Source: Sphingomonas sp. (lineage in GTDB: Bacteria; Pseudomonadota; Alphaproteobacteria; Sphingomonadales; Sphingomonadaceae). Taken from it: 41,795 nucleotides of DNA. The position numbers and the translations under genes were made by a program. The notes below the pieces were generated by a model. It ran no database searches. It was given only the letters and a program-made list of their open reading frames with translations, and was not told the origin of the DNA. Where the stretch lies: the NCBI RefSeq assembly GCF_013816785.1, contig NZ_JACDDV010000013.1, forward strand, positions 1 to 41,795, given 5' to 3'. Below, piece after piece: positions 385 through 12,923 of this stretch (its first letter is position 1; each line of letters begins with the position of its first letter).

Positions 385-924
385 TCAGTTGATGCGCTTG
401 ACCTTGACGCCCGGTTGCCGCGCCACGCTCAACATGTAGCTGCCGAGCGCGCCCTTCTTGATTACGACCTTGTCGCCGGACCGCGGCGCTAGGGCAAATG
501 GCTTGCTGTCGGTCTGCGACCAGCGGCTACCGTCTGCGAGGCGAAAGATGTAACCGCCGTCGCCATTGACGGCGGTCGAGACCACTTCGCCGTCAATTTG
601 CTTGATCTCCACCTCATCATTGTCGTCACCGAAAATGCCGAGGTTGGGGATCCCGAATCCAAACAGCCCGCGCTTAGTCTTGCGCACCGATGCTCGATCG
701 AACACGACCAGGTCGCGCTTGGCGATCGCGTCGCCAAGGCCCGCGGCGTTTTTGTCGAAGCAGGCCAGGCGGGCCTCGCCGCCGGCGATCGCGCGGCAGG
801 CGAGGATGGCATTGACCTGGGCCGGCGGCGGTCCGGCCTCCAGTTTTTTCGCCGTGGACGTGGAGGCCATGCACATCAGTCCGACGCCAATGATCGCCGC
901 CAATTTTCCCCGGCCAAACCGCAT
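385..924 (-). CDS. exported protein of unknown function
   Basis: A 179-residue protein. The open frame continues upstream to 1083, but the ATG at 924 is chosen because a clear GGGGAGAG ribosome site lies just upstream and because it begins a normal signal peptide (Arg/Lys start, hydrophobic stretch, STSTA cleavage area around residue 25). The mature part starts with a short helical segment carrying two cysteines (ILACRAIAGGEARLACFD), a motif seen in many small exported proteobacterial proteins. A hydrophobic Gly/Phe stretch and a beta-rich C-terminal half follow, ending in a basic tail. The product is probably periplasmic. It converges with the DUF2093 gene and diverges from the TonB receptor gene. 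I do not recognise a function. Confidence 0.7.
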   Translation of the reverse strand: MRFGRGKLAAIIGVGLMCMASTSTAKKLEAGPPPAQVNAILACRAIAGGEARLACFDKNAAGLGDAIAKRDLVVFDRASVRKTKRGLFGFGIPNLGIFGDDNDEVEIKQIDGEVVSTAVNGDGGYIFRLADGSRWSQTDSKPFALAPRSGDKVVIKKGALGSYMLSVARQPGVKVKRIN

Positions 925-1159: not shown

Positions 1160-4100
1160 ATGAAGCTCGATTTTCGTCAGCGACTGCTCGCCACGACCCT
1201 CCTAGTCGGTGCCGGTTTGATCGCCCAGCCCGCCTTCGCCCAAGACACGCAGACCGCCGATCCGGCGGCCGCTCCCCCATCTGGCCCCGTTGAGGCGCAG
1301 CCGACTCCGTCTGTCGCCGCTACCGGTGAGCCGGTCAGCGAAACCAAGGACATCGTCGTTACCGGCACTCGCATCCCTTCAGCCAACCTGGAGTCGGCGG
1401 CGCCGGTCACCGTTGTCAGCAGCCAGGACCTGAAACTTTCGGGCACGACCCGCGTGGAAGATTTGCTTAACTCGCTGCCGTCTGTCGGCGCGTCGCAGTC
1501 CTCTGGCCTTTCCAACGGCGCCACCGGCACTGCCGAAGTGGATCTTCGCTATTTGGGCTCGAAGCGGACGCTGGCGCTGATCAACGGCCGGCGTCTGGTT
1601 CCGGGCGATCCGAACAGCTCCACTCAGGCCGCCGACCTCAACTTCATCCCCTCGTCTGTCGTCAAGCGCGTTGAAGTGCTGACGGGCGGCGCCTCCTCGG
1701 TCTACGGCGCGGACGCCGTCGCGGGCGTCGTCAATTTCATCATGGACACAAACTTTACCGGCATTCGCTTCGACGGGCAGTACAGCGTCTATCAGCATTC
1801 GAACGGCGACCCGTCGGTCGGTAATTGCGCTGCTGTTCAGGCACGCCTTTGCTCGTCGGTAGGTCAAGGGCTGAATGTCAGTGACATTCTAAATCTCCGC
1901 GGCTTTGGCTTTCCAAAGGGAAGTGTTGTCGATGGCGGCACTTTCGACGGCACGGTATCGATCGGTTCCGGCTTCGACGACAACAAGGGTCATGCTCTGG
2001 CCTATTTCGGCTATCGCAAAGTGAGGCCCGTTCTTCAGGGTCGTCGCGACTTCAGTTCGTGCGTCTTGCAGAATGCCGCAGGCAACAGGACGCCGGGACC
2101 GCGGAACCCCCGGTGCGGTGGATCCGCAACGGCCAACCCGGGCACTGCGGTAATCTTTGCGACCTCCTCGTCGGGCTCGGTGACTTCGACTGTGGCGGCG
2201 CTCGGGCCGGGCACGATCACGCCGTTCTCGTCGAACCTCTTCAACTTCGCGCCGTTGAACTATTTCTTGCGCCCGGACGAGCGTTACATCGGCGGCGTCT
2301 TCGCTGACTATGAAATCAACAATGCGATCAAGCCGTACCTTGAATTCATGTTCATGGACGACCACACACTGGCGCAGATCGCGCCATCAGGCGATTTCGG
2401 CAACACGCTGACCATCAACTGCGATAACCCGCTTCTCTCGGCGTCTCAGCGGACGACAATCTGCTCGCCGGTCAACCTCATCAACGGTTTCGTGGGCAAT
2501 TTCCCGCTGACCTCGGGAGCCAAGAACCCAGGCGCGCCAATCGATTTCGTCAACACGGTGCCGGGCGGTGCTCCCTTCAACAAGGCCTTTTTTCAGCTTT
2601 TGCGCCGCAACACTGAAGGCGGGCCGCGTATAAACGATTTGCGCCACACCAGCTTCCGCGGCGTGCTTGGAACCAAGGGTGACCTTAGCAAGGCCTGGTC
2701 ATACGACGCTTACTATCAATACGGCCGCACCAATTACGATCAGGTCTACAAGAATGAATTCTCGGCGGCGCGGCTGACGCGCGCGCTCGACGTCGTCGAC
2801 AATCCCAACGTTGCCAACACGGCGGCCAACCCCTTCCAGCCCGTTTGCCGTTCGTTCCTTGACGGCAGTGACCCAACCTGCGTGCCCTTCGACGTGTTCA
2901 CCGGTACGCCTGTATCACCAGCGGCCGTCAATTTCCTCAACGTCTTCGGCGTGATCCAGGGCAACACGTCGGAGCAGGTCGCCAACGCCAACTTCACCGG
3001 CGCGCTGGGCGAATATGGCCTCCAGAGTCCGTGGGCCGAGGAGGGATTCGGCGTCAACGTCGGCGTGGAATATCGCAAGGAGTCGCTGTCCCTGAATCCC
3101 GATCAGTCATTCCAGACCGGCGATCTCACTGGTCAAGGTGCCCCGACGCTGCCTGTCAGCGGAAACTTCAGGGTGTTCGAGTATTTCGGCGAAGCACAGC
3201 TGCCAATCGTGCAGAACAATTTCATCGACAATCTGAGCTTGGGACTTGGCTATCGTAAATCCTATTACAAGTTGAGCAGCGGCCGAAAATACAATACGAA
3301 CACCTATAAGCTGTCCGCGGAATTTGCGCCGATCCGCGATATCCGCTTCCGCGCCGCCTATAACCGGGCGGTTCGCGCACCGAACATTCAGGAGCTGTTC
3401 GCACCGCAGTTCGTCGGTCTTGACGGATCGAACGACCCGTGTTCCGGCCACATCATCCAGCCGACAGAATTCGGCTGTATTGCTCAAGGCGTCAAAGCGG
3501 GCACCGGCACGCCGTCGAACCCGGCGGGACAGTATAATGGCCTGCTTGGCGGCGATCCAAACCTGTCGCCCGAAAAGGCAACGACCAAGACTGCCGGCGT
3601 CATCCTGCAGCCACGCTTCCTGCCGCGCTTTGCCTTCACCGTCGATTATTTCAATATCAACGTGAAGAAGGCGATCCAGGGTTTCGGCGCGGACGCGATA
3701 CTCCAGGCTTGCATCGACGGGACGACTTCATTGACAAGCGTTTCGCCAGCCTGCGCCTTGGTCAATCGCGATGCCGCCGGATCAATCTGGCTGACGCCGG
3801 GCGGGTTCGTGAGGGATCTTCCGAACAACGAAGGAGAGGTCGAAACGAGCGGCCTCGACTTCAACGGCTCGTACAGTCACGGAGTGGGAGGCCTCGGCAG
3901 TCTTTCGCTGAGCTTCCTTGGAACCTATCTGAGGCATTACAAGGTCGATAATGGTCTGACTGAGCCTTACGACTGCGCCGGTCTTTATGGCCCGATTTGC
4001 AGCGGTAACGCCGTTGCGAGCGGGGCACCGCTGCCCAAGTGGCGGCACAAGGCGCGTGCGACACTCCAGATGCGTAACGGAATCGGCGTTTCGCTGGGTT

Positions 4101-4423
4101 GGCGCATGGTGGGCAAAGTCAAAGCCGAGACGCTGGAGGACAGCAACTCGCTGGCCGGCCAGTTCAACTTCGATCCGGGGTTGCACATCAAGGCGCAGCA
4201 TTATTTCGACTTGGCGACGACCTTCACCGTTGGCGACCATTACAATCTCCGCCTCGGCGTGAATAACATACTCGACAATGATCCGCCGTTGGTAACGGGC
4301 GGCAATGCCAATCGGAGCGGCTCCAACCTTTGTCCGGCTGGCGCGTGCAACGGCAACACCTATCCCGGCACCTGGGATGCCCTTGGGCGCTACATCTATG
4401 CCGGCGTGACGCTCGACTTTTAG
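1160..4423 (+). CDS. TonB-dependent outer-membrane receptor
   Basis: A 1087-residue receptor. The ATG at 1160 is preferred over 1058: it follows a GGGGAAG ribosome site and opens a signal peptide (KLDFRQRLL, hydrophobic core, cleavage near AQPAFAQ). After a Pro/Ala linker comes a TonB-box-like IVVTGTRIPS, then a plug domain (roughly residues 75-190) with LINGRRLVPGD and GGASSVYGADAVAGVVNF, then the beta-barrel ending in the aromatic YIYAGVTLDF typical of this family. Such receptors import siderophores, sugars or peptides using TonB energy; the ligand cannot be read here. All 16 cysteines of the protein fall into eight close pairs. It has its own strong terminator and heads the hydroxylase/sulfotransferase gene block. 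The 235-base gap to the divergent exported-protein gene must hold its promoter, but I see no convincing box. Confidence 0.95.
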   Translation: MKLDFRQRLLATTLLVGAGLIAQPAFAQDTQTADPAAAPPSGPVEAQPTPSVAATGEPVSETKDIVVTGTRIPSANLESAAPVTVVSSQDLKLSGTTRVEDLLNSLPSVGASQSSGLSNGATGTAEVDLRYLGSKRTLALINGRRLVPGDPNSSTQAADLNFIPSSVVKRVEVLTGGASSVYGADAVAGVVNFIMDTNFTGIRFDGQYSVYQHSNGDPSVGNCAAVQARLCSSVGQGLNVSDILNLRGFGFPKGSVVDGGTFDGTVSIGSGFDDNKGHALAYFGYRKVRPVLQGRRDFSSCVLQNAAGNRTPGPRNPRCGGSATANPGTAVIFATSSSGSVTSTVAALGPGTITPFSSNLFNFAPLNYFLRPDERYIGGVFADYEINNAIKPYLEFMFMDDHTLAQIAPSGDFGNTLTINCDNPLLSASQRTTICSPVNLINGFVGNFPLTSGAKNPGAPIDFVNTVPGGAPFNKAFFQLLRRNTEGGPRINDLRHTSFRGVLGTKGDLSKAWSYDAYYQYGRTNYDQVYKNEFSAARLTRALDVVDNPNVANTAANPFQPVCRSFLDGSDPTCVPFDVFTGTPVSPAAVNFLNVFGVIQGNTSEQVANANFTGALGEYGLQSPWAEEGFGVNVGVEYRKESLSLNPDQSFQTGDLTGQGAPTLPVSGNFRVFEYFGEAQLPIVQNNFIDNLSLGLGYRKSYYKLSSGRKYNTNTYKLSAEFAPIRDIRFRAAYNRAVRAPNIQELFAPQFVGLDGSNDPCSGHIIQPTEFGCIAQGVKAGTGTPSNPAGQYNGLLGGDPNLSPEKATTKTAGVILQPRFLPRFAFTVDYFNINVKKAIQGFGADAILQACIDGTTSLTSVSPACALVNRDAAGSIWLTPGGFVRDLPNNEGEVETSGLDFNGSYSHGVGGLGSLSLSFLGTYLRHYKVDNGLTEPYDCAGLYGPICSGNAVASGAPLPKWRHKARATLQMRNGIGVSLGWRMVGKVKAETLEDSNSLAGQFNFDPGLHIKAQHYFDLATTFTVGDHYNLRLGVNNILDNDPPLVTGGNANRSGSNLCPAGACNGNTYPGTWDALGRYIYAGVTLDF

Positions 4424-4446
4424 GAGCGTTACAAAGGAACTTCTCG

Positions 4447-4480
4447 GGCGGTGGACCATCGGGTCCGCCGCCTTTTTTTT
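4447..4480 (+). terminator. strong intrinsic terminator behind the TonB receptor gene
   Basis: An 11-base-pair stem (4447-4457 pairs with 4462-4472, with one G-T wobble) and a four-base loop ATCG are followed directly by eight T (4473-4480). This is a textbook Rho-independent terminator 23 bases after the receptor stop codon, so the next genes need their own promoter or depend on read-through. Confidence 0.93.
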
Positions 4481-4539
4481 GGCCACGAAGGCTGAGGGCG
4501 ATGCTGTCACAGGCGCGCGATTGCGTTAGAGAGGGCGCA

Positions 4540-6585
4540 ATGACGGCGACATTTGTTCTCGACGACCGCACCGCGGATGCTATTCGGCAGGCCATCAACG
4601 CAGCCAGCAGAGGCGCCCTGGCCGAGGCATGCGCGATCGGCGATCGCGCGTTGGCCGGGGGTGGTAACGCCGCTGCATTGAACGCGATGCTGGGAATGCT
4701 GCGGTGCCAGTCAGGGAACCTCGATACTGGCATCCGACACTTGCGTGCCGCTCACGAGGCCCAGCCGGCAGATCCGAAGATTGCCGCAAATCTTGCAACA
4801 GCGCTTTCCGAGGGAGGTCATCATCGCGAGGCGCTCGAAGTTTTGACCGAAGATTTGGCGCGGGTCGACGCGAGCATGCGTCTTGAGCGGCTCCGGGGCT
4901 ATCTCGCTCAAACGCTTGATGACTTCCCGGCCGCTATCCAGTCCTACGAGCGGGTTGTTGCCGCCGCCCCGTCCGACTGGGAGGCTTGGAACAACCTCGG
5001 CAACGCCCGCCGGAGCGAAGGCGACATTGAAGGAAGTATCGTGGCTTTGCGGCGGGCCGCTAAACTTGAGCCTGAGTCGCCACCCGTGCTCTTGAACCTT
5101 GCGCTGGCCATCGGCGCTGCGGGCGATCTGGAGGAATCTGAAAGCCAATTGCGCGCGATCGCTGCCGATTATCCCGCAGAAGCGAGACCGCTCGGTGAGC
5201 TTCATGCTTTGCTGAGGGAACAGGGTCGAGACGAGGAAGCGCTCGAAGCGATTGAGGCCAGCGTCCAGCGCGATCCCGCGAACATTGAATCGTTGCTTGC
5301 GCTCGCAAGCCAATTGTCGCTGCTGCAGCGTTATGATGCAGCCGAAGCGGCGTACCGTCGTGTCATAGCGCTCGATGCTGCCAACAGTCTCGCCAACCTT
5401 GGACTCGCGCTGGTCTTCGAGCTCACCAATCGGAGAGAACAGCTATCGAAGCTGGTTTCGGAGGCGGAAGAGCGCGGAGTAGAAGAAGCCGCGGTCAATT
5501 TCATCCGTGCCTTCAATTTTCGGCGCGAAAAGCGCTTCGAGGAAGGGCTGAAGGCTCTCGACGGGGTGCCCGACATACTGGAAACCCAGAGGCGCATGCA
5601 TTTGTTGGGTCAATTGCTCGAAGGTGTCGGGCGATATGACGAGGCCTTTGCCGCATTTTTGCGCATGAATGAGCTCGGCCACGAAGATGCCGTGCTGCCC
5701 GAGCAGCGGGGCGCCAACTACCGGGGCAATGTCCGCAATCAGTACGGGACGGTCACGCCGGAATGGGTGGGCGGCTGGCGTCAGGAAAAGGGACGCGACC
5801 CCCGGCCTTCGCCCGTCTTCCTCGTTGGATTTCCGCGGTCGGGCACGACGCTGCTCGATACGATGCTAATGGGCCATCCACAGATTGAAGTGCTCGAAGA
5901 AGAACCGGCGCTACGCGAAGCTGGCGCGCTGCTTCCTGAATTCGCAACACTGTCGACCGCCGGCGACGAACAGATCCGGGCAGCGCGCGATGCATATTTC
6001 CGCATGGCGAAGTCCCTGACGCCGTTGAAGCCGGGCAACTTGCTGATCGACAAGAACCCGTTGACGATGAACAATCTGCCGGTGGCTCGTCGCCTGTTCC
6101 CCGATGCCAAGGTCATCCTGGCGCTGCGCCATCCCTGCGATGTGGTGCTTAGCTGCTTCATCACCAACTTCCGGGCGAACGACGGGATGGTGAGTTTTCT
6201 GGGACTCGACACCGCCGCAGAACTTTACGACCTCAGCTTCAGCTATCTTGAGCGCGTGCAGGAACTGATGAAGCTGCCAATGCACACGATCACTTATGAA
6301 AATGTGGTGGCCGATCAGGAGCGGGAGTTAAGGCCGCTGTTTGAGTTTCTCGAACTGGACTGGAACGACCGGGTTCTTGAGCATGAGTCGACGGCGAAGG
6401 GCCGGGGGCGCATCAAGACCGCCAGCTATTCCCAGGTGGTCGAGCCAATCTACACGCGCGCGTCGGGACGCTGGTGGCATTATCGCAAGCATCTTGAGCC
6501 GGCATTCGCGGTGCTGGCCCCATGGGTCGAAAAATTTGGCTATTCGTTGGACGACCCGGCCAAGATACCCTCAAAGCCGGCATGA
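4540..6585 (+). CDS. TPR-repeat sulfotransferase
   Basis: A 681-residue protein. The ATG at 4540 has an AGAGAGGGCG ribosome site; in-frame starts at 4501 and 4330 overlap the terminator region and receptor and are less likely. Residues 1 to about 390 are tandem tetratricopeptide helices (for example WEAWNNLGNARRSEGD). Residues from about 420 form a sulfotransferase domain: PAPS 5'-phosphosulfate loop GFPRSGTTLLDTML (430-443) and 3'-phosphate segment VILALRHPCDVVLSCF (525-540) with Arg and Ser in place. Relatives use PAPS to sulfate small molecules or tyrosines of peptides (family knowledge). There is no signal peptide, so it should act in the cytoplasm, with the TPR part probably binding the acceptor or a partner. 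Its stop overlaps the next start as ATGA, suggesting matched amounts of both proteins. Confidence 0.9.
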   Translation: MTATFVLDDRTADAIRQAINAASRGALAEACAIGDRALAGGGNAAALNAMLGMLRCQSGNLDTGIRHLRAAHEAQPADPKIAANLATALSEGGHHREALEVLTEDLARVDASMRLERLRGYLAQTLDDFPAAIQSYERVVAAAPSDWEAWNNLGNARRSEGDIEGSIVALRRAAKLEPESPPVLLNLALAIGAAGDLEESESQLRAIAADYPAEARPLGELHALLREQGRDEEALEAIEASVQRDPANIESLLALASQLSLLQRYDAAEAAYRRVIALDAANSLANLGLALVFELTNRREQLSKLVSEAEERGVEEAAVNFIRAFNFRREKRFEEGLKALDGVPDILETQRRMHLLGQLLEGVGRYDEAFAAFLRMNELGHEDAVLPEQRGANYRGNVRNQYGTVTPEWVGGWRQEKGRDPRPSPVFLVGFPRSGTTLLDTMLMGHPQIEVLEEEPALREAGALLPEFATLSTAGDEQIRAARDAYFRMAKSLTPLKPGNLLIDKNPLTMNNLPVARRLFPDAKVILALRHPCDVVLSCFITNFRANDGMVSFLGLDTAAELYDLSFSYLERVQELMKLPMHTITYENVVADQERELRPLFEFLELDWNDRVLEHESTAKGRGRIKTASYSQVVEPIYTRASGRWWHYRKHLEPAFAVLAPWVEKFGYSLDDPAKIPSKPA

Positions 6586-7724
6586 ACGTCCTGCTCGCCG
6601 AAGCGGATCGTGCCGCCGCCGCCGGCGATTTTTCGCGGGCGATCGGCCTTCTCGAAGAGGCCGGAACGGGAGAAGCTGCAGACGTCCAGCTATGGCTCAA
6701 ACTCGCGGCACTACGCCGCGCAGCGGGACAGCCGGCGAATGCGCTTGATGCTGTCGAACGCGCATTGGCGCTGTCTGAATATGATTTCATGGCGCTGACG
6801 ATGCGCGCGACACTGCTGGACAGGTTGGCGCCCGATCAGGCAGGAGAAGCTTGGGCGCGCGCCCTGGCGCAACGGCCGCGCGGACCTCTCCCGCCAGAGC
6901 TCACCGGCGTTGTCGCCAGGGGCGAAGCAATTCGTGATAATTGGGTTGCAGGACGAGAGCGAAAACTTAATTTCGCCACGCGGGAAGCGCTTGCGAAAGC
7001 CAATTTAGACGAGGCGGGCCGCATCGCCCGTTTCATGACCAATGCCCTCCGCAAGACCCGCGTTTATCATAGCGAACCGACGCATTTTGCCTTTCCTGGG
7101 TTGGTCGAGCGTGAGTTTCACGCGCGCGGCGAACATCAGTGGCTCTCGGAGATAGAATCCGCGACCGACCTCATCGCTAGCGAATTTGAAGCGGTGATGG
7201 CATCCGAACGCGCCGAGTTGGTGCCCTATATTCAATATGCGCAGCACGAAGCGCTGGCGCAGTGGCGTGATCTTAATCAGAACCGCGACTGGACCGCGAT
7301 CCATCTGATCAGGAATGGCGAACTGGTGGAGGTGAACGCGCGGCATTGCCCGGGGATCATGGCGTTGCTGGCGCGTCTGCCTCAGCCTGATGTGCCGGGT
7401 GCGGGGCCGAATGCGATGTTCTCGCTGCTGGCGCCCAATACGTCCATCCCGCCACATGTCGGCGTGAACAACACCCGGCTGGTCTGCCACCTGCCACTAA
7501 TTATACCCGAAGGTTGCTGGTTTCGCGTCGGGGCGGAAACTCGTCCGTGGCGCCGTGGTGAGGCGTTTCTGTTTGACGATACGATCGAACATGAAGCCGC
7601 CAATCCGTCCGACCAGCTTCGTGTCGTCTTCATTTTCGATGTTTGGCATCCCGGCCTGAGCGCCGTGGAGCGCGAGGGGGTGCGGCGGGTCATCGGGGCT
7701 GAGGGGAGTGTCGGCGGACTGTGA
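6582..7724 (+). CDS. TPR-repeat aspartyl/asparaginyl beta-hydroxylase family protein
   Basis: A 380-residue protein starting at the ATG that overlaps the sulfotransferase stop. An N-terminal helical TPR-like region (about 1-100) precedes an Asp/Arg hydroxylase domain (about 190-365). Visible iron/2-oxoglutarate residues are His292 in PPHVG, the RLVCHLPL strand (Arg299, His303), His337 in FDDTIEHEA and Arg347 in QLRVVFIFDVWHP. As in the AspH family, the position after the first His-x is Gly rather than an acidic residue, which fits the two-histidine iron site known for AspH. Known relatives hydroxylate Asp/Asn side chains of proteins or peptides. No export signal. Its stop overlaps the GTG start of the next gene. 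A close relative of its catalytic core is encoded at 11643-12923. Confidence 0.88.
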   Translation: MNVLLAEADRAAAAGDFSRAIGLLEEAGTGEAADVQLWLKLAALRRAAGQPANALDAVERALALSEYDFMALTMRATLLDRLAPDQAGEAWARALAQRPRGPLPPELTGVVARGEAIRDNWVAGRERKLNFATREALAKANLDEAGRIARFMTNALRKTRVYHSEPTHFAFPGLVEREFHARGEHQWLSEIESATDLIASEFEAVMASERAELVPYIQYAQHEALAQWRDLNQNRDWTAIHLIRNGELVEVNARHCPGIMALLARLPQPDVPGAGPNAMFSLLAPNTSIPPHVGVNNTRLVCHLPLIIPEGCWFRVGAETRPWRRGEAFLFDDTIEHEAANPSDQLRVVFIFDVWHPGLSAVEREGVRRVIGAEGSVGGL

Positions 7725-9232
7725 CCTTTGAAGCCGAATTGGCATGCGCCTCGTCGCGACCGTTCGACCCGGCGGCGCTGGAACAGCTTGCCAGGATCGC
7801 GCTCGACGAAGGCGAGGAGGAGCGGGCCCTGCCTCTTCTCGAGCGCGCTCTAGAGAAAAGTCCCAATGCTTTATTGTGGCAATGGAAGGGATTGCTCGAA
7901 CGTTCGATCGACGAGCACGAACGGGCATTGAAATCGTTCGCCCGAGCGGCACAGCTTGATCCGTCGGACGTCAGCATCGCGCATGGTCATGCTCGTGTGG
8001 CGATGGAAGCTGGACTCGACGCTCAGGATTTGTACGAGCGCGCGCGCGCTTTGGCGCCCCGGAACGGAGCGATCATCATCGGCCGCGCGGCGGCACGGGC
8101 TGCGGCTGGCAACGGGGAAGCGGGTGCCGCGGAGCTGGCGGCGGCGCTCGAACAATCGCCGATGTGGCTTGGTGGCCATGAACAGCTCGCCCAATTGCTG
8201 GCGATTGAGGGCCGTGCGGCGGAAGCCACGGCGTCGCTCGAAAGGGCGCTCAATCGGTTCCCGAGCGCGGTTCCGCTGTGGGAGACGCTGCTCAACGTTC
8301 AGCTGCGGCGCGGAGCCTATCCATCGCTAAAAAACATCGTCGAGCGAGCCGAAGCGGCCGGCGCGAGTTCCCCGGAGTTCGCCATCTATAAGGGCATTCA
8401 CGCCGCTGAATTCGAAAACGACACTTATCCCTCAGCACTGTTTGACGACGCCCCCGCCATCGCCCAAGGTCCGCTGGGACGATGGCGGATCCGCCACCTC
8501 CTGCGCGTCGGCGCCGTGGACGCCGTTCTTCCCCTGATCGATGACGAGTTGCGGGCCGAGCAGAGCGTCGAGATGTGGGCCTATGCGGGCACCGCTTGGC
8601 GCCTGGCGGGCGATGCTCGTTTAGAGTGGCTGGAGGGCGACTCGCGTTTGGTGAGCGTGACCGACCTCTCCGAATCGCTTCCACCCCTTGAGGCACTCAC
8701 CACGACATTGCGATCCCTTCACGTCGCCAGGGGCGAATATCTGGACCAATCGGTGCGCGGGGGAACCCAGACAGACGGACCGCTGTTCAGTCGCATCGAC
8801 CCGGTCATTCGCGGACTCCGGGAGGCCGTCGTGGCCGCGGTTGAAAAGCATATTGCACAATTGCCCCCGAATGATCCCCGGCATCCTACGCTGCGTCACC
8901 GGCGCAACCGTCGGGCGAGATTCTCCGGGAGCTGGTCGGTCAGGCTGCGATCAGGCGGCCGCCACTCGAACCACCTACACCCCCTTGGGTGGATCAGCTC
9001 GGCGCTTTACCTCGGGCTGCCGCCCAGGATGCCAGGGGAGCGGGATGATTCGGGCTGGTTGACGCTGGGCGAGCCGGATGACCTGCTCGGCCTTGATCTA
9101 CAACCCTGGCGGAAAATCGAACCAAAGGCGGGGCGGCTGGTCCTTTTTCCCTCGACGATGTGGCATGGTACGATGCCGTTCGAGTCAGGCGAGCGACTGA
9201 CGGTGGCCTTCGATGTCGCGCATCCGCGCTGA
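7721..9232 (+). CDS. TPR-repeat putative 2OG-Fe(II) oxygenase
   Basis: A 503-residue protein with a GTG start that shares four bases (GTGA) with the upstream stop. No other start lies near the family's N-terminus, since the next Met is about 90 residues in. Residues 20-300 are TPR-like helical repeats (for example ALPLLERALEKSPNA and ALKSFARAAQLDPSD). Residues from about 390 form a double-stranded beta-helix oxygenase of the PF13759-like type: NHLHPLGWISSALYLGLP (417-434) with the His-x-His-Pro iron motif (His418, His420), then LVLFPSTMWHGTMPF with His482, then Arg492 in ERLTVAFDVAHP for 2-oxoglutarate. The reaction is probably hydroxylation of an unknown substrate. It closes the three-gene coupled set, suggesting a sulfotransferase/hydroxylase/oxygenase assembly. 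Confidence 0.85.
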   Translation: MTFEAELACASSRPFDPAALEQLARIALDEGEEERALPLLERALEKSPNALLWQWKGLLERSIDEHERALKSFARAAQLDPSDVSIAHGHARVAMEAGLDAQDLYERARALAPRNGAIIIGRAAARAAAGNGEAGAAELAAALEQSPMWLGGHEQLAQLLAIEGRAAEATASLERALNRFPSAVPLWETLLNVQLRRGAYPSLKNIVERAEAAGASSPEFAIYKGIHAAEFENDTYPSALFDDAPAIAQGPLGRWRIRHLLRVGAVDAVLPLIDDELRAEQSVEMWAYAGTAWRLAGDARLEWLEGDSRLVSVTDLSESLPPLEALTTTLRSLHVARGEYLDQSVRGGTQTDGPLFSRIDPVIRGLREAVVAAVEKHIAQLPPNDPRHPTLRHRRNRRARFSGSWSVRLRSGGRHSNHLHPLGWISSALYLGLPPRMPGERDDSGWLTLGEPDDLLGLDLQPWRKIEPKAGRLVLFPSTMWHGTMPFESGERLTVAFDVAHPR

Positions 9233-9257
9233 GCCCTTGTCGTTTGTCGAATGCGGA

Positions 9258-9286
9258 TTGACGCGCAAGTCCTCGTCTGGTTTGCT
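9258..9286 (+). promoter_or_regulatory. candidate housekeeping promoter for the small exported genes
   Basis: TTGACG (9258-9263), a 17-base spacer, and TTTGCT (9281-9286) match the alphaproteobacterial sigma-70 pattern, with a perfect -35 for that group and a weak -10. Transcription would begin near 9293, about 23 bases before the first small-gene ATG. It would let the small secreted proteins be expressed apart from the TPR enzymes. Confidence 0.4.
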
Positions 9287-9315
9287 GCGCATCGTACTTT
9301 TTCAGGAGTGTTGGC

Positions 9316-9564
9316 ATGCGTCCCGCGTTATCTCGTGCATTGACATTTGTCGCAATTCTTGCAGCTAGCACAACCGCCCTTGCGACCGACAAGGTCGAAA
9401 GCAAGGATCCGAACCGCATCGTCTGCGAGAAACAGCCGGTGCTGGGATCGCGCCTCGCCCACAAGCGGGTATGCAAAACCGTAGCCGAATGGCAGGTAGA
9501 CCGCGCGAGCGATCGCCAAGACATTGAGCGGACGCAGGTTACGCGGCCCACGAACGGCAACTAG
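9316..9564 (+). CDS. small exported protein, first of a tandem paralogue pair
   Basis: An 82-residue protein with a CAGGAG ribosome site seven bases before its ATG. Residues 1-23 form a signal peptide (Arg, hydrophobic core, TTALA). The mature part carries DPNRIVCEKQPVLGSRL, then KRVCKTVAEW and a charged tail. The DPN / CE / GSRL / RVC / EW residues recur in the next gene and in other small sphingomonad exported proteins I have seen (recollection, not searched). The two cysteines could form a disulfide in the periplasm. Function unknown. Lying between hydroxylase and sulfotransferase genes, it could be a modification substrate, which is inference only. Confidence 0.8.
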   Translation: MRPALSRALTFVAILAASTTALATDKVESKDPNRIVCEKQPVLGSRLAHKRVCKTVAEWQVDRASDRQDIERTQVTRPTNGN

Positions 9565-9598
9565 GCTATTCTCAATTTCGCGTGAGGGAAGAGTAGCC

Positions 9599-9877
9599 GT
9601 GACCGTCAAGGCGAGTCTCCCACTATTTGCCTCGTTATTCGCGTTTACCTTGTCGTCGATAGGTTTGGCGGCGGACGCTGCACCTCAGTCAGCCAAGGCA
9701 AGGGATCCCAACGAAAAAATCTGTGAAACCCAATCGATCGTCGGTAGCCGTCTCACCGTTCGCCGGGTATGTGCCACGCGATCGGAATGGGCCGATCGAA
9801 AACGACAGGATCGGGATGCGTTCGATCGCGCCCAGACCCAGCTATGCGTGGTAAACCCCAGCACCGGAAAATGCTGA
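9599..9877 (+). CDS. small exported protein, second of the pair
   Basis: A 92-residue protein. The frame is open from 9524, but that would run into the previous gene. The GTG at 9599 has a strong GAGGGAAGAG ribosome site six bases upstream and starts a signal peptide ending near LGLAADA. The mature part has DPNEKICETQSIVGSRL and RRVCATRSEW, aligning without gaps to the upstream protein, plus a Cys-containing C-terminal extension (QLCVVNPSTGKC) absent from it, so four cysteines in all. It lies 34 bases after the first paralogue, so the pair probably arose by tandem duplication and is cotranscribed. Function unknown. Confidence 0.78.
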   Translation: MTVKASLPLFASLFAFTLSSIGLAADAAPQSAKARDPNEKICETQSIVGSRLTVRRVCATRSEWADRKRQDRDAFDRAQTQLCVVNPSTGKC

Positions 9878-9914
9878 CCTTGGCGAAAGCGCCCGCAGGC
9901 CGCATCAGCAGCGA

Positions 9915-10931
9915 GTGAATCCGCAGCCCCTGCCCGACCGCTGGATCGAAGGCGCGGCCTGGCTCGCCCAGGCAATGGATCTCAACGCGCGCCTGCTGCG
10001 CCTTGTGGGAATGGATGCTGAACGGTATCGCGCCAGCAGCTTCCTTGACGATCGAATGATGAAGCCGGGCATGGACGTTCGGTTATGCGATCTCGATGCC
10101 GTCATGGCCGACGCCCACGCACTGACTCGCGACGACGCGGGCTGGATTTTTCATATCGGTCATACCGGTTCGACACTGGTGTCGCGTCTGCTGGGCGAAG
10201 TCGACGGGATATTGGCGATCCGCGAGCCGCGGTCTCTGCGCGACCTTGGCGCCGTTTCCGATTCCGAACGCGACGCCGTGGCGCTGACTTTGCGGAGACT
10301 GATGGCGCGCACGTTTGCGCCCGGACAGGCGGCGTTGGTCAAGGCGTCGAGTTTTGTCAGCGAATGGGCGCCCTTGCTGATGGGACCGGACGCGCGTGCG
10401 TTGTTCGTGTTCGCCTCACTGCCAAACTATATCGCCGGAATCCTGGCCGGGGAAAACAGCGTGATCGAACTCCGCGCGCTTCACGACGACCGACAGCGAC
10501 GGCTTCGGGGGCGGGGCGTGATTCTCGACGGCTTCGACCGGAGCGATGCGCACCGATCGGCGGCGGCCTGGGCCTGCGAGATGAGCTCGCTCGAAGCCGC
10601 CGCCGCGGCGCGCCCGGACGCGGCGGTCATGTGGCTCGATTTCGACGCGATGCTAGCCGACATGGTCCCGGCGCTCGAACGCTGTGCCCAACACTTGGGC
10701 ATGGCAGCCAATCAAGAAAGGATCGCAGCAATCGTCGACGGGCCGCTGATGCGGCGATATTCCAAGTCGCTCGAATATGACTATAGTCCCTCGCTTCGCG
10801 CCGAACTTCTTGCCGAAGCGACGCGCGACCATCGCGGCGATATCGAGCGGGCGGTTTCTGCGTTGCATGCGGTAGCGGCCGACGCGCCGCTGATCGCGCG
10901 GGCGCTCGGGCGCGTCCAGGGAAGGGGATGA
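9915..10931 (+). CDS. P-loop sulfotransferase-like protein
   Basis: A 338-residue protein with a GTG start at 9915; the ribosome site is weak and ATG 9975 is an alternative. Around residues 76-92 lies a nucleotide-binding-type loop, GWIFHIGHTGSTLVSRLL, in the position and shape of the PAPS loop of sulfotransferases, but with HTGST instead of the usual PRSGT. The sequence then continues with IREPRSLRDL and a helical C-terminal half with VMWLDFDAML, which recalls the late LRYEDL-type strand of sulfotransferases. I call it sulfotransferase-like; kinase activity or a non-catalytic role cannot be excluded. No TPR repeats and no signal peptide. The next gene (PKHD hydroxylase) starts one base after its stop, so the two are surely cotranscribed. 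Confidence 0.65.
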   Translation: MNPQPLPDRWIEGAAWLAQAMDLNARLLRLVGMDAERYRASSFLDDRMMKPGMDVRLCDLDAVMADAHALTRDDAGWIFHIGHTGSTLVSRLLGEVDGILAIREPRSLRDLGAVSDSERDAVALTLRRLMARTFAPGQAALVKASSFVSEWAPLLMGPDARALFVFASLPNYIAGILAGENSVIELRALHDDRQRRLRGRGVILDGFDRSDAHRSAAAWACEMSSLEAAAAARPDAAVMWLDFDAMLADMVPALERCAQHLGMAANQERIAAIVDGPLMRRYSKSLEYDYSPSLRAELLAEATRDHRGDIERAVSALHAVAADAPLIARALGRVQGRG

Positions 10932-10932
10932 G

Positions 10933-11595
10933 ATGTACCGTGTGTTGTCGTTGCTGAGCGCGAGTGAGGTCGCGGAATGTTGCCGTATCGCGTCCAAAAC
11001 GCAGTTCATCGACGGGCGCGCGACCAACCCGCACAACAAGACCAAGAATAATCAGCAGCTACATGATCCGGCGGCGAGCCAGGCAAGCTCGCAGATCATG
11101 CTTCAGGCGTTCGCGCGCAGCGAGGAGTTTCGCGAGTTTGCCTTTCCGGCAAGGATCGCACCGCCGCTGATGACCAAATACCAGCCCGGTATGTCTTATG
11201 GCGCGCATGCCGACGCCGCATTCCTCAACCTAGGCAATGCGGTTATCCGCAGCGATTTGAGCTGCACCATTTTCCTCAACGATCCGGCAAGCTACGACGG
11301 CGGCGCACTCCATATCCGCCTGGGCGACGCCAGTGTGCGTTTCAAGCTAAAGCCAGGCGATACGATCCTCTATCCGTCGGATACATTCCACGAGGTTGAG
11401 GAGGTGACCCGCGGCGAACGGCTGGTCGCTATTACCTTTATCGAGAGTCAGATTGCCGACCCATTCCGGCGGACCCTGTTGTTCGATTTGAACGAGGTAG
11501 CGGCGCTGGAAGGGCTCAAGATGGAGCAGCAGAATTTCTCGCGGCTGCAGCTCGTCCAGTCGAATCTGCTGCGCTATTGGGCGGACAAACCCTAG
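10933..11595 (+). CDS. piuC: PKHD-type Fe(II)/2-oxoglutarate hydroxylase (PiuC/YbiX family)
   Basis: A 220-residue protein of usual family length. Iron ligands are His92 and Asp94 in YGAHADAAFL and His153 in YPSDTFHEVEEV. Arg163 in GERLVAITF would bind 2-oxoglutarate, and SDLSCTIFLNDP and YDGGALHIRLG are family strands. PiuC/YbiX genes are known to sit beside iron-related TonB receptor genes (piuA, fiu), and here the same enzyme lies in a block that begins with a TonB receptor. The natural substrate of the family is not established. The ribosome site GAAGGGG lies inside the end of the upstream gene. Confidence 0.9.
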   Translation: MYRVLSLLSASEVAECCRIASKTQFIDGRATNPHNKTKNNQQLHDPAASQASSQIMLQAFARSEEFREFAFPARIAPPLMTKYQPGMSYGAHADAAFLNLGNAVIRSDLSCTIFLNDPASYDGGALHIRLGDASVRFKLKPGDTILYPSDTFHEVEEVTRGERLVAITFIESQIADPFRRTLLFDLNEVAALEGLKMEQQNFSRLQLVQSNLLRYWADKP

Positions 11596-11642
11596 CCGGA
11601 GCGCCGCTTGACCGGACGCACCGCGTCGAGTCAATTGTCACG

Positions 11643-12923
11643 ATGCCGCAGCACGGACTCGAGCACCACCTTAGCGAAGCGAAAGCCGCTCAAGCGGCAG
11701 GGCGCACGGCCGATGCTGGCCGCCATTTCCTAGCCGTGCTCGCTCTGGACCCGCACCACCTTCATGCCCGAAATGCGCTGGGGTTAAGCGCGCTCGAGGC
11801 CGGCGATGCCAGCGCGGCGGCCGACCATTTCCGGGCGGCAGCGAGCGCCAACCCCAAGGTTGCGACCCTATGGACGAACCTTGCGATGGCCCATCGGATG
11901 AGTGGAGATAGCGAGGAGGAGAGGGCCGCGCTCGATCGGGCGCTGGCCATCGATCGGATCGACGTCACGGCCCTCATTCGCCTTGCCGAACTTCACGAGC
12001 GGATGGGCGAGCTGGGATCGGCGACGGACCGCTGGGCGATGGTCCTTACCTTATGCGAACAAATCCCGGATCCAACCCCGGAACTTCAAGCGATCCTGGG
12101 CCGCGCCCGCACTTTTATCGAACGCCGGCATGAGGCACTCGAAATCGCTGTGGGCGCCGGCATGGCTTCGCTGCTGGGCGGGGCGAACGAGCGGGACCGC
12201 CGGCGCGGGTTGGCGGCAGCGGACTTCATGCTTGGCCGTCGCCAGGCTTTTGCCAATCAATGCCACGGATTCTTCTATCCATTTCTGCCGGCCGACGAAT
12301 TCTTCGACCGGGGCCAGTTTTCATGGTTGGAACGGCTAGAATCGGCGACGGCCGAGATCCGCGCCGAGCTCGAGGCAATCCTGGCCAGCGTCGATCCGGG
12401 CTTGGCGCCGTATATCGAAATGCCCGCCGGCACGCCTACCAATCTGTGGAGTAAGCTGGACAAATCGGCTGACTGGAGCGCCTTTCATCTGTGGCGCGAC
12501 GGCGAGCGGATCGACGAGGCATGCGCGCGGGCGCGGCGCACCGCGGAGCTGGTGGATTCCTTGCCGCTCGCACGAATTCCCGGCCGCGCTCCGGCCGTTT
12601 TCTTCTCCATACTGAGGGCAGGGAAGAGGATTCCTCCTCACACCGGCGTCACCAATGTACGGACGATTATCCATCTGCCGCTGATCGTTCCTGAAGGCTG
12701 CGGCTTTCGCGTCGGGGGGGAGACGCGGCAATGGCGCGAGGGCGAGGCGTTCGCTTTCGATGATACGATCGAGCATGAAGCCTGGAACAATAGCGACAGC
12801 GACCGGGCGATGCTCATCCTCGATTGCTGGAACCCACATCTCAGCGAGGATGAGCAGGCGATGGTCCTCCGCTTGTTCCAGATTTCCGAGAACCAGCGGC
12901 CAGACAAGCCACTCCGCGGTTAG
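11643..12923 (+). CDS. second TPR-repeat aspartyl/asparaginyl beta-hydroxylase family protein
   Basis: A 426-residue protein. ATG 11643 is used; the frame is open from 11577 but that overlaps the hydroxylase gene. There is no good ribosome site, and a TTGACC-N17-TCAATT pair would put transcription start almost at the ATG. TPR helices occupy residues 1-140. The hydroxylase domain (about 230-400) has His333 in [21 protein letters not shown], His378 in FDDTIEHEA and Arg388, nearly the same core as the protein at 6582-7724. It differs at the end, where DVWHP becomes DCWNP, so a normally conserved His is Asn. Its stop codon overlaps the stop of clpB on the other strand. Confidence 0.86.

Follow-up and report, generated by a model that had tools for sequence, protein, structure and literature searches.

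Our analysis of a 41,795-nucleotide window of Sphingomonas sp. DNA revealed a locus in which a TonB-dependent receptor (TBDR) gene is followed by genes for putative sulfotransferases and 2-oxoglutarate (2OG) oxygenases. We suggest that it encodes an outer-membrane receptor together with its own cytoplasmic modification set, and put the chance that the receptor is the substrate of these enzymes at about even. A broader proposal is held more tentatively, at somewhat less than even. TPR-sulfotransferases and 2OG oxygenases may constitute a widespread bacterial system that jointly modifies an adjacent receptor, or in relatives autotransporters, flagellins, porins and large adhesins, yielding sulfated and hydroxylated surface proteins. 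Such a system would be a prokaryotic counterpart of tyrosine sulfation in the Golgi and Asp/Asn hydroxylation in the ER. TBDRs are usually regarded as unmodified barrels. A search of literature titles and abstract openings, excluding preprints and most subscription papers, found no description of a TPR-sulfotransferase acting on TBDRs or autotransporters.

Every gene named in an earlier sequence-only reading of this DNA was recovered in the window. The receptor (1,087 residues, 1160 to 4423, forward strand) contains Plug and barrel domains, which score 70.8 and 113.5 bits, each above its cut-off. Its structure model has a pLDDT of 82.3, and five cysteine pairs are conserved. A signal sequence is apparent by eye, the way in which all export signals, present or absent, were called. 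Divergent from the receptor gene, on the reverse strand at 388 to 921, is a gene for an exported protein of about 178 residues with a C-x8-RLAC[YF]D motif. The window copy has no Pfam match. Genes of this type are partners in 45 of 64 loci anchored on the first AspH-type gene of the set (AspH1), and a single copy was found in the genome to which the window belongs. The remaining genes are on the forward strand. Three of them, encoding a TPR-sulfotransferase (4540 to 6585), TPR-AspH1 (6582 to 7724) and a TPR-2OG-Fe(II) oxygenase (7721 to 9232), had been described as chained by four-base overlaps. This stands once the AspH1 start is moved from 6522 to its likely position at 6582. ATGA at this start overlaps the TPR-sulfotransferase stop by four bases, and GTGA at 7721 to 7724 places the TPR-2OG start over the AspH1 stop, which indicates that the overlap chain is real. 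Small exported protein A (82 residues, 9316 to 9564) and its paralogue B (9599 to 9877, GTG start) come next, followed by the sulfotransferase-like ST2 (9915 to 10931), a PiuC/PKHD-type 2OG-Fe(II) oxygenase (10933 to 11595) and TPR-AspH2 (11646 to 12923).

The TPR-sulfotransferase matches PF13469 with 111.7 bits. Among solved structures, its C-terminal domain is closest to seven tyrosylprotein sulfotransferase sequences (TPST1/2, E 8.2e-18 to 1.1e-15), with CurM next at 5.7e-7. A PRSGTT motif and conserved Glu, Arg and Ser are present, which we take to be the PAPS loop, the catalytic Glu and the residues contacting the 3'-phosphate. With gaps excluded, Arg433 is kept in 65 of 65 aligned sequences, Glu454 in 66 of 66, Arg530 in 67 of 67 and Ser538 in 65 of 67. 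The protein thus appears to be tyrosylprotein sulfotransferase-like, with tyrosine as the most likely acceptor. An APS kinase gene for PAPS supply is found elsewhere in the same genome (C30). ST2 scores below the PF13469 cut-off (17.4 against 27 bits), as do its relatives (19.9 and 23.8 bits), and a sequence search of the PDB gave no convincing match. Its predicted fold (pLDDT 82.5) matches tyrosylprotein and glycopeptide sulfotransferases with a best E of 1.1e-4, and TM-scores against TPST chains are modest, about 0.36 to 0.44. By fold alone, ST2 is probably a divergent member of the sulfotransferase fold.

AspH1 and AspH2 match PF05118 with 143.8 and 144 bits (cut-off 22.6) and contain two His and one Arg characteristic of Asp/Asn β-hydroxylases, presumably the two metal ligands and the 2OG-binding residue. 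His312 is conserved in 89 of 90 aligned sequences, and His357 and Arg367 in all 90. The AspH domain also matches a solved AspH structure, which we take to be the human one (E 2.5e-24). The TPR match of AspH1 is below threshold (19.2 against 23.5). PF05118 also includes the lipid hydroxylases OlsC and LpxO. Judged by NCBIfam equivalog cut-offs, the two window domains fall short of both models, with 75.5 and 81.1 against 450 for OlsC and 45.1 and 43 against 500 for LpxO. The TPR-2OG protein matches PF13759 (74.3 bits) and has an HxHP...H metal site followed by Arg. The PiuC-type product scores 210.9 with NF003974 (cut-off 143), keeps HxD...H...R in six of six sequences at each position, and matches solved PiuC chains.

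Independent occurrence of these genes in relatives had been named in advance as an outcome that would count against a joint system. We found instead that the core is linked. A TBDR lies within 8 kb in 56 of 64 AspH1-anchored loci with flanks, compared to about 11 expected from the TBDR density (204 plugs in about 21.5 Mb), so this linkage exceeds chance. A TPR-sulfotransferase is present in 41 and a TPR-2OG gene in 40 of the same 64 loci. The ST2 and PiuC genes are the rarer part, near AspH1 in 2 and 3 of 64 loci. This part is nevertheless found again with the core in distant lineages: most of the set is present in another family of the same class (L116) and in two distant proteobacterial loci (L074 and L081). 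At eight of the 64 loci a TBDR is lacking in this range, and orphan AspH loci exist. Smaller combinations also occur. TBDR and AspH genes are found together at L062, L076 and L077, the former two also with a 388-921-type gene. Away from the window, the same genome contains a lone TBDR and TPR-sulfotransferase pair (C81) and a TBDR-TPR-2OG-TBDR gene run (C69). Three of its four PF13469 matches adjoin a TBDR; the contig ends 0.8 kb away from the fourth. Class-wide, four of the five places with the closest TPR-2OG relatives (E < 1e-30, window included) share a gene run with a TBDR or TBDR-like barrel. Against the linkage, only four of the nine AspH places share a gene run with a receptor, and distant TPR-2OG relatives mostly have no receptor as a neighbor. 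Of 17 outside TPR-2OG places that were retrieved, a receptor-like barrel was seen among the neighbors at one only (L146), where Pfam recognized it; the other neighbors were mostly judged without Pfam. Distance correlations are high (TBDR-sulfotransferase 0.88 over 44 loci, TBDR-AspH 0.85, sulfotransferase-AspH 0.76), and were set aside as evidence since common descent would produce them.

Relatives of the TPR-sulfotransferase are found near TBDRs, autotransporters, flagellins, porins or a secreted adhesin, and this pairing with surface-protein genes recurs across unrelated lineages, including a TBDR pair in Pseudoalteromonas. In annotated plasmid loci, an exported protein is within three listed genes in 13 of 19 cases and absent from that range in 6. 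Class-wide, at least 12 of 33 places have one within two genes. What these neighborhoods share is a surface protein, which leads us to propose that the enzymes act on the receptor prior to its export. The TPR domains would hold the unfolded receptor chain ahead of Sec export. The TPR-sulfotransferase, with ST2, would transfer sulfate from PAPS to the receptor, with tyrosine the most likely acceptor. Hydroxylation of its side chains would fall to the AspH-, PF13759- and PiuC-type oxygenases. The modified receptor would then be exported and folded, with its surface loops, stability or ligand binding altered. Each of three flagellins examined beside TPR-sulfotransferases has one Tyr, a thin basis for Tyr as acceptor. 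Two TPR-sulfotransferase loci contain a GT8 glycosyltransferase gene, so a glycan might instead receive the sulfate.

The sequence-only reading had offered an exported peptide, the receptor or a secreted ligand as substrate. We favor the receptor and rate the other two lower, because receptor and enzyme pairs exist without small proteins or biosynthesis genes, because related TPR-sulfotransferases adjoin quite different surface proteins, and because the window small proteins have no tyrosine. That proteins A and B are the substrate, as modified secreted peptides bound or retrieved by the receptor, is unlikely in our estimate. Their family, with two Cys and Asp/Asn conserved, is present in 36 of 64 AspH1 loci and almost confined to this locus in its own genome (two strong matches and one weak), and may thus provide a co-substrate or chaperone. 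However, Tyr is absent from 35 of the 44 family cores, among them the two in the window. This bears on Tyr sulfation; hydroxylation or Ser/Thr sulfation would be compatible with it. Ten loci (L008, L009, L010, L027, L031, L040, L048, L059, L074 and L081) have a TBDR and a TPR-sulfotransferase without a family match above 50 bits, a count of loci only, some of which end early, with a weak match at L059. At C81 only the receptor and TPR-sulfotransferase are present. A universal substrate role for the small proteins is accordingly disfavored. It is quite unlikely that the enzymes act on a receptor-imported ligand or secreted metal ligand, as others propose for PiuC/CciO. In the available text of a Caulobacter study, PiuC is proposed to metabolize a siderophore conjugate after its import (PMC12004943). 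At L062, L076 and L080 the TBDR-AspH genes are followed by one for a peptide-type ABC transporter (SBP_bac_5), and related genes occur at L070 and L079, but the transporter was noticed in few loci only. No biosynthesis genes were recognized among nine scanned window genes, and a ligand would leave unexplained why TPR-sulfotransferases adjoin flagellins, autotransporters and an adhesin accompanied by type I secretion genes.

That the target is a lipid or glycan of the envelope, such as a sphingolipid, and the receptor a bystander, is improbable. The sub-threshold OlsC and LpxO matches, the glycan enzymes within the same sulfotransferase fold and the two GT8 loci would fit it, whereas the closest solved structures are the protein-modifying TPST and AspH. 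TPR scaffolds and repeated pairing with single surface proteins would also be ill-suited to a lipid. The least probable explanation is that the linkage results from common ancestry and from co-regulation of functions unrelated to each other. Inherited synteny accounts for part of the linkage, since the window and 14 other loci have a ClpB-type gene close to the set. However, the genes stay close together despite differences in order and strand (L024, L052, L074 and L116 types), and separate receptor-enzyme pairs exist within one genome.

The proposed receptor modification has partial parallels. One is the dedicated modification of adhesins or flagellins in the cytoplasm, with HMW1C and autotransporter heptosyltransferases as examples. 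There too the enzyme gene adjoins its surface-protein client and modification precedes export; in the window, sulfate and hydroxyl groups would replace sugar, and the clients would mainly be TBDRs. In eukaryotes, tyrosylprotein sulfotransferase and AspH are Golgi and ER enzymes acting on secretory proteins. Their catalytic domains align with those of the window enzymes with active-site residues kept, whereas the latter are bacterial, apparently cytoplasmic, and have the sulfotransferase fused to TPRs. RaxST-RaxX involves a peptide substrate and type I export, without TPRs. The window differs in its TPR scaffolds, hydroxylases and outer-membrane receptor. The accessible part of one report describes RaxST-RaxX as bacterial tyrosine sulfation (PMC4216712), and our proposal likewise has a bacterial sulfotransferase that modifies a polypeptide destined for export. 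In CciT-CciO and PiuA-PiuC, as in the window, a TBDR gene is linked to a 2OG oxygenase; the window adds three TPR oxygenases and two sulfotransferase-like proteins. According to the available text of the Caulobacter study, CciO loss lowers CciT protein with mRNA unchanged, other iron TBDRs also drop, the function of CciO is given as unknown, and receptor modification is not among the hypotheses there (PMC12004943). As far as that text goes, the CciT drop is thus not partner-specific, and the pair may serve as a precedent for a receptor-linked PiuC-type enzyme. CciO is encoded directly beside its receptor; six genes lie between the two in the window. If the receptor does carry sulfate and hydroxyl groups, its ligand binding, the entry of phages and antibiotics, and the way outer-membrane proteomes are searched by mass spectrometry should be revisited. 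A candidate type of substrate would then also be at hand for PiuC/CciO, TPR-AspH, TPR-bearing PF13759 proteins and TPR-sulfotransferases.

Several receptor features were considered as modification sites or system markers. The AspH/EGF-type consensus was rejected as a site rule, being present in only 4 of 59 receptors. The motif C-x(4-9)-G-x(0-2)-D-x(1-3)-C-x-P is found in 49 of 58 associated receptors and 1 of 27 others, a contrast set aside as circular because the pattern was derived from the associated receptors themselves. Alignment columns richer in Tyr among the 45 receptors accompanied by a TPR-sulfotransferase than among the 14 lacking one may reflect relatedness and were not used, and acidic-Tyr counts in client proteins were uninformative. 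A strong terminator-like hairpin (12 pairs, followed by eight T) is located at 4446 to 4473 on the forward strand, between the receptor and enzyme genes. Such a hairpin follows the receptor at 44 of 46 loci where an enzyme gene comes next, compared to 3 of 1180 in-gene control segments. It was rejected as a system-specific feature, since a comparable hairpin is also found behind 22 of 25 other receptors.

All nine genes claimed by the sequence-only reading were found where it had placed them, and their presence in the window is confirmed. They encode a TonB-dependent receptor (TBDR, 1160-4423), a TPR-sulfotransferase (4540-6585), AspH1 (6582-7724), TPR-2OG (7721-9232), two small exported proteins (9316-9564 and 9599-9877), ST2 (9915-10931), a PiuC-type enzyme (10933-11595) and TPR-AspH2 (11646-12923). 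The AspH1 gene is present, but its start is most likely at 6582, where ATGA overlaps the 3' end of the TPR-sulfotransferase gene. The next gene begins with GTGA at 7721; all three TPR enzyme genes are thereby chained by overlaps, as that reading had also proposed. The TPR of AspH1 falls below threshold. ST2 scores under the Pfam cut-off, and its sequence has no convincing relative among solved structures (best E 0.3, lectins). Its predicted model, however, gives Foldseek matches (E 1e-4 to 1e-3) to Teg14 and to the tyrosylprotein sulfotransferases of human and tick, at TM-scores near 0.4.

Linkage was analyzed with the 80 top-ranked AspH1 relatives out of at least 586 in a genome collection. 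Loci were surveyed with the window proteins and profiles built from the AspH1-relative loci, and the 64 with at least 4 kb on either side of AspH1 were counted. Within 8 kb of AspH1, a TBDR is found in 56, the TPR-sulfotransferase in 41, TPR-2OG in 40 and the small exported family in 36. The core of the set thus travels together; the PiuC type (3 loci) and ST2 (2 loci) are rarer near AspH1. The 8-kb scan found no TBDR in L044, L047, L049, L060, L063, L066, L068 and L083. Seven genomes of the family carry 204 plugs in roughly 21.5 Mb, a TBDR density from which about 11 of the 64 loci are estimated to have one by chance, versus the 56 observed; this comparison gives no probability because the loci are related to each other. 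Gene order and strand vary while the genes stay linked: receptor-sulfotransferase-AspH-2OG, receptor-AspH-2OG-sulfotransferase, and AspH divergent from receptor-2OG-sulfotransferase are all seen. Two AspH genes, PiuC, ST2, the TPR-sulfotransferase and a TBDR are each present in L074 (Steroidobacteraceae MAG) and L081 (proteobacterial MAG); neither TPR-2OG nor the small protein was found at these loci. In L116, from another family of the class, PiuC, ST2, AspH, TPR-sulfotransferase, a TBDR recognised by Pfam and TPR-2OG adjoin on mixed strands. The linkage of receptor and enzyme genes is real.

A further conserved member lies beyond the span originally delimited. This gene (388-921, minus strand) is divergent from the receptor, and its exported product carries an RLAC[YF]D motif. 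The window copy has no Pfam match. Besides the window, 50 loci have family matches; the family lies within 8 kb of AspH1 in 45 of the 64 and is found as one copy in the own genome.

The own genome has 16 plug matches. Three of its four PF13469 matches adjoin a TBDR (window, C81 and C6); the fourth, in C20, has no adjoining TBDR, and the contig ends 0.8 kb further on. The C81 pair is 58.6% (receptor) and 45% (TPR-sulfotransferase) identical to the window pair. One of three PF13759 matches is in the window set; that in C69 is flanked by TBDRs on both sides, and that in C6 is three genes from one. For the small exported family, the window holds both strong matches, and the genome has one further, weak match. 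It also encodes one APS kinase. A second hydroxylase-plus-sulfotransferase pairing occurs in C57 (L085 6888-9099), where an AspH-Sulfotransfer_2-AspH trio adjoins an exported DUF4402 protein; no receptor was recognised within that stretch.

TPR-sulfotransferases elsewhere also have exported neighbors. Among 19 annotated plasmid records (21 examined of 40 listed), 13 have an exported client within three listed genes. By annotation, these are TBDRs (L090, L100, L102, L103, L107, L112), autotransporters (L097, L098, L105, L109, L111), a flagellin (L113) and a cadherin-domain protein in one run with type I secretion and adenylyl-sulfate kinase genes (L106 1-12370). None was found within this distance in L093, L099, L101, L104, L108 and L110; the TBDR in L104 stands fourth. 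Across 57 genomes sampled from the class, 15 carry the sulfotransferase domain, at 33 places in all. Within two genes of at least 12 of these places lies a TBDR, a flagellin, an autotransporter, a porin or another outer-membrane barrel (C48, the window's contig, C81, C6, L116, L129, L136, L123 twice, L133, L124, L138, L119). One scanned neighbor in L126 is a histidine kinase, and an exported-looking neighbor in L115 has no Pfam match. Flagellin genes adjoin TPR-sulfotransferases in L123 (7111-14237) and L113 (3794-6804); the three flagellins examined have one tyrosine each. In the enterobacterial plasmids L105 (4819-11032) and L098 (8260-14308), a GT8 glycosyltransferase accompanies TPR-sulfotransferase and autotransporter, which suggests combined sugar and sulfate modification.

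The TPR-2OG domain occurs at 25 places in 13 of the 57 genomes. Five places have E below 1e-30; at four of them (C48, C69, L116, L146) the gene run also holds a receptor or a barrel resembling one, and the fifth, L145, is not in such a run. By Pfam, a CarboxypepD_reg, OMP_b-brl_4 and TonB barrel adjoins TPR-2OG in L146 (5335-10243). A CarboxypepD_reg/OMP_b-brl_4 barrel adjoins a TPR-sulfotransferase and AspH in L139 (4695-15964), from the same genome, another of the window's family. Of the 17 places retrieved outside the own genome, L116 and L119, L146 alone showed a receptor-like gene among the neighbors covered, although distant receptors may escape the profile. Seven genomes have the AspH domain, at nine places: four (L116, L139 and the two in the own genome) are in a receptor gene run, and five are outside any. 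The general rule thus holds for the TPR-sulfotransferase; AspH and TPR-2OG conform to it in the neighborhood of this receptor lineage. In L062, L076 and L080, TBDR-AspH genes precede a peptide-type ABC transporter gene (SBP_bac_5); in L077 (6700-13278), a TBDR and TPR-AspH precede an unknown 232-residue protein and an ExbB-family gene.

Among solved sulfotransferases, those acting on tyrosylprotein are by far the best matches of the TPR-sulfotransferase domain (E 8e-18 to 1e-15), and AspH1 matches AspH. The aligned active-site residues of the enzymes are almost invariant. Four candidate substrates were weighed: the receptor, the small proteins, the 388-921 protein and a ligand. Small exported proteins accompany many loci, yet 35 of 44, including both window copies, have no tyrosine, and none was seen at ten loci with receptor and TPR-sulfotransferase. 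A receptor occurs with one enzyme type in C81, L090, L107, L112, L062, L076 and L077; L062 and L076 also carry a 388-921-type gene. These pairs, and the TPR-sulfotransferase family beside unrelated surface proteins, indicate that a surface protein is the common factor. In Caulobacter, with CciT (TBDR) and CciO (PiuC type), cciO deletion lowers CciT protein with mRNA unchanged, other iron TBDRs are lowered too, and CciO, described as of unknown function, is hypothesized to metabolize the imported substrate or to serve iron supply (PMC12004943). The lowered CciT is an experimental hint that a PiuC-type enzyme may act on a receptor. The genes are best read as a set that would modify the receptor, the favored substrate, by sulfation and hydroxylation.

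The receptor model (pLDDT 82.3) is a TBDR with long loops; at its N terminus, most of residues 1-66 are modelled with low confidence. Judged by spacing, its cysteines probably pair as 301/319, 563/574, 761/773, 851/865 and 939/947, between long barrel strands. Conservation of the pairs among 59 receptors is 97% or higher. Seven of the ten cysteines are still invariant after adding two other receptors of the own genome, so the pairs are not special to the set. The receptor analysis singled out no modification site. A strong terminator-like hairpin (4446-4473) separates the receptor and first enzyme genes. Of 46 loci in which an enzyme gene follows the receptor, 44 have an equivalent (median gap 88 bases). 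Because one also lies 3' of 22 of 25 other receptors, it shows only a possible excess of receptor over its enzymes, which would suit a substrate and its catalysts.
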